Below, one piece after another: positions 17,325-18,366 of a stretch of 47,008 nucleotides of DNA. The stretch is from Campylobacterota bacterium. Its GTDB lineage: Bacteria > Campylobacterota > Campylobacteria > Campylobacterales > Sulfurovaceae. Below the pieces are notes generated by a model. It did not search any database. It was given only the letters and a program-made list of their open reading frames with translations, and was not told where the DNA came from. A program made the translations under genes and the position numbers. Within the stretch, counting starts at the first letter, position 1. The number at the start of each line of letters is the position of its first letter. The DNA is taken from NCBI GenBank assembly GCA_013607775.1, contig VCAW01000002.1, positions 1 to 47,008 of the forward strand, read 5' to 3'.

Positions 17325-17762
17325 CTATCCTTTATTATAAAGTAGGCTATACAAATTATTTTCTTCAAACTCTATACGTTCACCTAAAATGCCTACAAGA
17401 CTATTAAACATATTAAAGAACTCTTCATCCAGCACAATATCATCTTGCGTATATTTTGTTAATAAGTTCATTAAAGCCATTTTCGTACCTTTAAAAGTAT
17501 CAGTGAACTCACGAACCATAGATTCACTCTTAGTCGTGATTCTTTTTTGATCTTTCATAAGTTTATAAAATTCGATATCTTCATTCATTACGTGATCTAC
17601 AGCAAGGTTATTTAACTCTTTGAGTGCATTTCTTGCATTGTCATGATTGTTTTTAGAATATTCTCCAATTACCTTATGTGCTAAAACTACGATATCCTCG
17701 TGTTCTTTTGTCCATTTCTTAACTAATTTTTGATTTTTCGATAAAAATAATCCTGATAACAT
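17325..17762 (-). CDS. hemerythrin-like HHE domain protein
   Basis: A 145-residue helical protein with the hemerythrin-type metal motif: H21 in KEHEDI, H57 and E61 in DHVMNEDIEFY, and an acid-rich last helix (GERIEFEENNLYSLL). Such proteins bind O2 or NO or sense iron and redox state through a diiron site; the last-helix histidine usual in the family appears replaced by glutamate, so metal binding may differ. It is divergent from the globin gene, with 151 bases between the start codons holding one symmetric FNR/CRP-type site. I infer a shared response to oxygen or nitric oxide. Confidence 0.7.
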   Translation of the reverse strand: MLSGLFLSKNQKLVKKWTKEHEDIVVLAHKVIGEYSKNNHDNARNALKELNNLAVDHVMNEDIEFYKLMKDQKRITTKSESMVREFTDTFKGTKMALMNLLTKYTQDDIVLDEEFFNMFNSLVGILGERIEFEENNLYSLLYNKG

Positions 17763-17798
17763 TTATTGCCTTTTCCCCTAAAAGATTTAAAAAATTAT

Positions 17799-17804
17799 AG
17801 TATA
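17799..17804 (-). promoter_or_regulatory. -10 box toward the hemerythrin-like gene
   Basis: TATACT on the minus strand, centred 31 bases from the centre of the FNR/CRP-type palindrome. This is the spacing expected for a class II activated promoter. Confidence 0.5.
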
Positions 17805-17825
17805 TTTAATTATAAATAATTATTA

Positions 17826-17839
17826 TTGATATATATCAA
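17826..17839. promoter_or_regulatory. perfect FNR/CRP-family operator between hemerythrin and globin genes
   Basis: TTGAT-ATAT-ATCAA, a perfect inverted repeat matching the consensus bound by FNR and related CRP-superfamily regulators. It lies nearly midway between the two divergent genes, 64 bases from the hemerythrin start and 75 from the globin start. A TATACT box lies on each side at 31 and 33 bases centre to centre, so one bound dimer would sit near -41.5 of both promoters. In Campylobacter the globin is controlled by the CRP-family protein NssR; which regulator binds here is unknown. Confidence 0.7.
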
Positions 17840-17862
17840 TAAAAGTATAACCATTATATAGA

Positions 17863-17868
17863 TATACT
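17863..17868 (+). promoter_or_regulatory. -10 box toward the globin gene
   Basis: TATACT on the plus strand, centred 33 bases from the FNR/CRP-type palindrome, putting the predicted start of transcription near 17875 and the operator near -42. Confidence 0.5.
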
Positions 17869-17913
17869 TTCCAGCAAAAATTTTGCACACATTAAATTTT
17901 ACTTAGGGAAAAG

Positions 17914-18366
17914 ATGGGATCATCACCAAAACACCAAGAGCAATTATCACCAAAAACACAAGAGATATGTAAAGCAACTGCACCAGTTGTAGCTGAGCAT
18001 GGAGAAGCTATTACTACAAGAATGTATGAGATACTTTTCAAAAATTATCCTGAAACAAGAGCACTTTTTGGAGATGTACCAACAGACCAGCATAAAAAAC
18101 TTGCAAGTGCTATAGCAGCATATGCAGCAAACATTGACAACCTTGGTGCACTTAGTGGTGCAGTGGAAGGTATGGCACAACGTCACGTAAGAACAAATGT
18201 AAAACCAGAACACTACCCGATGGTAGGTGTGTCTTTACTTCAAGCCATCAAAGATGTACTTGGCGATGCAGTGACAGATGATGTTGTAAATGCATGGAAA
18301 GAAGCTTACTTCTTCCTTGGTGATATTCTTATCGCTAGAGAAAAAGAACTTTACGCAGAAAAATAA
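17914..18366 (+). CDS. single-domain bacterial globin (Cgb/VHb type)
   Basis: A 150-residue globin without a reductase domain. By comparison with Vitreoscilla haemoglobin the residues are B10 Tyr Y38, CD1 Phe F52, E7 Gln Q59 and proximal His H91, followed by the conserved EHYPMVG and the C-terminal VVNAWKEAYFFLGDI helix. Proteins of this type bind O2 and, in Campylobacter (Cgb), oxidise NO to nitrate. The gene stands alone on plus and shares its upstream region and operator with the hemerythrin-like gene. NO detoxification or O2 handling is the likely job. Confidence 0.9.
   Translation: MGSSPKHQEQLSPKTQEICKATAPVVAEHGEAITTRMYEILFKNYPETRALFGDVPTDQHKKLASAIAAYAANIDNLGALSGAVEGMAQRHVRTNVKPEHYPMVGVSLLQAIKDVLGDAVTDDVVNAWKEAYFFLGDILIAREKELYAEK

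Follow-up and report, generated by a model that had tools for sequence, protein, structure and literature searches.

A conserved, predicted Nss/DNR-type activator site between divergent globin and HHE-fold genes of a Sulfurovum-like bacterium

A perfect palindrome lies in the 151-bp intergenic region (17763-17913, 81% A+T) that separates divergent HHE and globin genes of a Sulfurovum-like bacterium. It is most likely a conserved class II activator site, centered near -41.5, for a Crp/Fnr protein of the Nss/DNR type. We consider it probable that this operator turns on the globin gene and that it is also able to act on the HHE gene. What we computed directly is the presence of the palindrome and its spacing, how well it is conserved beside globin genes and which genes accompany its site class in the genome. 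The window, by which we mean the whole stretch of DNA analyzed, spans 47,008 nucleotides and belongs to a genome assembly of 2.26 Mb in 268 contigs. The relevant features are:

17325..17762, minus strand: small HHE/hemerythrin-like four-helix protein, 145 residues (PF01814, 25.5 bits for a cut-off of 25.3)
17794..17799, minus strand: alternative HHE -10 element TATAAT, 36 bases from the palindrome center, unchanged in the sister genome G108
17799..17804, minus strand: candidate HHE -10 element TATACT, 31 bases from the palindrome center, predicted +1 at ~17792
17826..17839, no strand assigned: predicted Crp/Fnr (Nss/DNR)-type binding palindrome TTGATATATATCAA, supported by shuffles, the genomic site class and conservation among globin orthologues
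17863..17868, plus strand: predicted globin -10 element TATACT, 33 bases from the palindrome center, predicted +1 at ~17875
17914..18366, plus strand: single-domain globin of the Vgb/Cgb/flavohaemoglobin-head type, 150 residues (PF00042, E = 1.3e-14)

Architecture of the intergenic region

An earlier, sequence-only reading of this DNA had placed one perfect palindrome between the two divergent genes. Our analysis confirmed its presence at 17826-17839, where it is the sole TTGATN4ATCAA copy in the window, and direct reading extends the perfect palindrome to 20 bp (17823-17842). Dinucleotide-shuffled versions of the whole window held 0.18 copies of TTGATN4ATCAA on average, and 0.02% of 20,000 shuffles of the intergenic region contained the palindrome.

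The two TATACT boxes were also found as described, with centers measured at 31 bases (HHE side) and 33 bases (globin side) from that of the palindrome. They lie 64 bases apart with the palindrome one base off their midpoint and, with each -10 hexamer set as -12 to -7, the site centers at -42.5 for globin and at -40.5 for HHE. Because these centers are unequal, the mirror symmetry that had been proposed is approximate and not exact. When the flanks are shuffled, -10 matches of at least 5/6 at 31-33 bases on both sides occur with a chance probability of 0.0037. The 31-base HHE box reads TATGCT in the sister genome G108, and TATGAT is found at 31 bases in L073. A search for standard -35/-10 promoters of both genes returned one weak 9/12 match, fewer than in shuffles, and upstream of the HHE gene there is no good -35 hexamer to pair with TATAAT.

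The globin gene and its conserved box

The globin open reading frame encodes a globin fold with no reductase domain, as in single-domain globins of the Vgb/Cgb type. Its closest solved chains are a thermoglobin, 7dih, and 1vhb, and 2wy4 also matches; 1vhb is Vitreoscilla haemoglobin and 2wy4 the C. jejuni single-domain haemoglobin. The closest named records with a matching globin are Sulfurovum sp. metagenome assemblies.

Counting boxes within 120 bases of the start, we detected the palindrome upstream of 21 of the 29 globin loci of the family (25 genomes), for a background of 0.006 per upstream region. The globin -10 element sits at 32 bases in most orthologues, that is, in 19 of these 21 boxed loci, and at 33 bases in the window genome and its sister G108. 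A class-wide sample, in which the box count admits TTAAC half-sites, gave 18 boxed loci out of 29, 16 of the 18 with a -10 element at 32 bases. Two orthologues, L038 and L041, lack a box though a regulator is present. In two relatives, a Crp/Fnr gene (MTAETFSR/MTAETLSR helix) is located directly upstream of the globin gene. The expectation that the palindrome would be conserved beside the globin gene in relatives was thus borne out, and the conservation of both sequence and spacing indicates that the globin box is an old promoter element, in a known arrangement that matches the NssR-cgb relation.

The globin N-terminus, MGSSPKHQEQLSPKTQEI (17914-17970), resembles the product of a tandem, in-frame duplication of ~24 bases; the globin of the sister genome G108 begins MGLSPQIQEI. 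Second globin copies occur in G089, G137, G138 and G097 (L042-L045). They have no TTGAY box, and three of them are instead preceded by a TACAAT-N2-ATTGTA-like palindrome.

The site class across the genome and its candidate regulators

The genome contains 35 TTGAYN4RTCAA sites, compared with 7 for a reversed-pattern control. Their neighbors include a napA-type gene (so labeled, from sequence and neighbors, as a large molybdoprotein gene heading a nap-type cluster), a Crp/Fnr gene, nosZ (Pfam nos_propeller), siroheme/haem-d1 and NirDL-like genes, a radical-SAM gene and c-type cytochromes. We defined a -10-like hexamer as one with at least 5/6 matches to TATAAT and counted gene-facing flanks from intergenic sites. 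Of the 29 gene-facing flanks, 11 have such a hexamer at exactly 32 bases from the site center and no other distance accounts for more than 2; of the 28 flanks of sites within open reading frames, none has one at 32 bases. This fixed peak is the spacing of class II activation and fits the site-to-start distances reported for napA, norE and nosB in a campylobacterial case, where exact TTGA-N6-TCAA sites begin 48-49 bases ahead of the predicted starts (PMC11539149).

The globin locus has sequence features of an Nss/DNR-type class II Crp/Fnr regulon: a TTGA-N6-TCAA palindrome lies upstream of the target, the spacing follows the ~32-base, ~-41.5 arrangement with 33 and 31 bases here, each one off the genome peak, and the genome encodes Crp/Fnr proteins with an E-x-x-S-R helix (L017 and L018). 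Two further sites, L095:13932 (siroheme synthase/NirDL) and L108:1624 (SDR/ribonucleotide reductase beta, NrdB), are flanked on either side by a -10-like box at 32 bases; both loci are two-sided at a 4/6 threshold, and only SDR/NrdB keeps both sides at 5/6. Since other sites of the genome have this 32/32 arrangement, two-way use of the HHE-globin site is plausible, and shared class II operators between divergent genes may be a recurrent feature here.

A Pfam HTH_Crp_2 search of the genome identified four Crp-family genes, of which L017 and L018 alone have the E-x-x-S-R recognition helix. These two candidate regulators are 56% identical over 217 residues. One is encoded directly upstream of the napA-type gene, the other in the siroheme/haem-d1-type cluster, and the solved DNR protein is among the matches of the latter. 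No third, globin-dedicated E-x-x-S-R regulator was found in the genome, where the globin-linked regulator of a relative matches only L017 and L018. Either of the two may act at the site, and the signal may be NO, nitrate or N2O. L019 and L020 were dropped as candidates, their recognition helices not being of the E-x-x-S-R type. L020 (G000:C119:3984-7139) has an in-frame stop between its sensor half and its helix-turn-helix half, which may reflect a mutation, recoding or an assembly error.

Pairing and promoter of the HHE gene

The divergent HHE-globin pair occurs in three genomes: the window genome (G000), G108 and G035, which belongs to another genus. In G035, a genome only 83% complete, the pair has no box and no match for the regulator was detected. 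In five more genomes of the family the two genes are found on separate contigs. Upstream boxes were found at 6 of the 30 HHE loci (G000, G108, G059 and the G069/G072/G132 group) and not at the other 24; the HHE genes of G059 and of the G069/G072/G132 group have -10-like hexamers at 31-32 bases from theirs. Judged from these comparisons, the HHE-globin pairing is a lineage-limited, local addition to an old globin site. The HHE gene is probably a second target of the site, a plausible assignment that is less certain than that of globin.

These data divide several proposals of the sequence-only reading. The idea of a single dimer near -41.5 of both promoters has good support for globin and is probable for HHE, where the -10 element may be placed at either 31 or 36 bases. 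As to the same pair and box recurring in relatives, the globin box is kept, and the pair is restricted to three genomes, with G035 boxless. The suggested redox- or NO-responsive switch is consistent with the denitrification/NO-type regulon outlined by the other sites of the genome; its HHE-globin link, in turn, appears lineage-limited, with one pair lacking the box.

A model for the shared site and its alternatives

From the above we infer a model covering the binding regulator, its signal, activation as opposed to repression, use of the site in the HHE direction and the functions of both proteins. Nitrate, nitrite or NO would activate an Nss/DNR-type Crp/Fnr regulator, whose dimer at ~-41.5 would contact RNA polymerase in the class II manner and switch on the globin gene; the globin would then detoxify the NO that denitrification produces. 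From its one position the dimer would also act in the opposite direction on the divergent HHE-fold gene via the -10 box at 31 bases. Several observations count against this model: the spacing is 33/31 instead of 32, the HHE gene has a competing TATAAT at 36 bases, most HHE loci and the G035 pair are boxless, and so are the globin orthologues L038 and L041.

Alternatively, the site would serve globin only and the HHE gene would be divergent by accident, with its own constitutive TATAAT promoter. In favor of this reading, which we regard as possible but rather unlikely, the TATAAT at 36 bases is identical in the sister genome, in which the 31-base box has drifted to TATGCT, most HHE relatives (24 of 30) are boxless and the pair is confined to three genomes. 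It is at odds with the HHE genes of two other lineages, which have a box of their own and a -10-like hexamer at 31-32 bases, with the apparently bidirectional 32/32 sites elsewhere in the genome and with the lack of a good -35 partner for TATAAT upstream of HHE.

The identity of the regulator could also differ. An oxygen-sensing Fe-S FNR-type protein would make the switch answer low O2 and not nitrogen oxides; the palindrome core is the E. coli FNR consensus, and Sulfurovum-type bacteria are microaerophilic or anaerobic. We nonetheless consider this improbable, as neither E-x-x-S-R regulator (L017 or L018) carries a cluster of N-terminal cysteines of the FNR kind, which speaks against an Fe-S FNR, both sit in nap/nir-type clusters and the site neighbors are mainly denitrification genes. 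What was initially called an FNR/CRP-type palindrome is hence retained as a Crp/Fnr-type class II site, strict FNR being unlikely. A repressor operator, or a palindrome arisen by chance, might be entertained in DNA as AT-rich as this intergenic region. Both are extremely unlikely given the rarity of the palindrome in shuffles and a 32-base spacing fixed over family, class and genome, which is the geometry of an activator.

Comparison with known systems

In C. jejuni, the gene for the single-domain globin, cgb, is activated by NssR (excerpts of PMC1274295 and PMC4601167) through the motif TTAACN4GTTAA (excerpt of PMC1274295). The present locus resembles NssR-Cgb in combining a Crp/Fnr-family activator, a single-domain globin and an FNR-like palindrome upstream of the globin gene. 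It differs from it in that the half-site is TTGAT and not TTAAC, the candidate regulators lie in denitrification clusters and not beside the globin gene, and the divergent HHE gene would use the same site.

NssA, NssB and NssC of Wolinella succinogenes and two Crp/Fnr proteins of Nitrosophilus labii have TTGA-N6-TCAA sites (PMC11539149). These systems and ours have in common such sites and the placement of regulator genes ahead of nap and nor/nir-type clusters, whereas the text of PMC11539149 names no globin or hemerythrin target (0 occurrences). The excerpt of PMC1274295 gives TTGATN4ATCAA as the DNR motif, with nir/nor/nos targets, and states that HcpR regulons often hold hemerythrin-like genes. 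Our site class shares this motif and these targets with DNR of Pseudomonas and the presence of a hemerythrin-like gene with HcpR, but DNR and HcpR are other regulator lineages, for which no bidirectional globin-HHE promoter is described in that excerpt.

The locus adds a member to the known Nss/NssR-globin regulons, one whose second target is specific to its lineage. An Nss-type NO/denitrification regulon can be read from sequence in Sulfurovum-like bacteria, and the box together with its fixed 32-base distance to the -10 element yields a list of targets that can be tested in these bacteria, which are difficult to cultivate. A small and hitherto unstudied family of HHE-like proteins, in which metal ligands are replaced, becomes a probable member of the NO response in some lineages; a link in function between the chemistry of the HHE protein and globin-based defence is hypothetical and lineage-limited.

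The HHE protein

The HHE protein belongs to Hemerythrin (PF01814) by a marginal 0.2 bits over the curated cut-off. All 27 aligned relatives match this family at E <= 0.01; among the ones compared with the cut-off, two score below it. The AlphaFold2 model is a four-helix bundle (pLDDT 88.5), and its comparison with known folds gave weak matches to the DcrH hemerythrin domain and to designed bundles, none below E 0.001.

Residues H21, H57, E61, K94, R129, E133 and E134 are invariant in the 27 aligned sequences. Assigning ligand positions by reading the alignment, we found that the full His/carboxylate di-iron set, with His in helices A-D, is incomplete, Lys94 and Arg129 occupying helices C and D. 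Since these residues are invariant where His is expected, a canonical O2/NO-binding di-iron site is not supported. Binding of O2 or NO, which had been attributed to both gene products, is doubtful for this one. C. jejuni HerA and HerB are likewise small hemerythrin-type proteins of the same phylum; HerA has all its His ligands and is spectroscopically di-iron (PMC4257069), unlike the present family with Lys and Arg at the expected ligand positions.

Membership of Rsd/AlgQ (PF04353) was considered and rejected: the two nearest relatives, L066 and L067, score 28.7 and 29.9 bits over nearly the full length, under the cut-off of 35, the window protein is not among the matches listed, and no Rsd/AlgQ protein was found in its own genome. 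The two groups of proteins may nevertheless be related. We consider it very improbable that the HHE protein, instead of carrying O2 or NO, is a helical bundle whose metal site has degenerated, possibly related to the sigma70-binding Rsd/AlgQ proteins, and that its joint production with the globin lets nitrosative stress also tune transcription or shield a partner protein.
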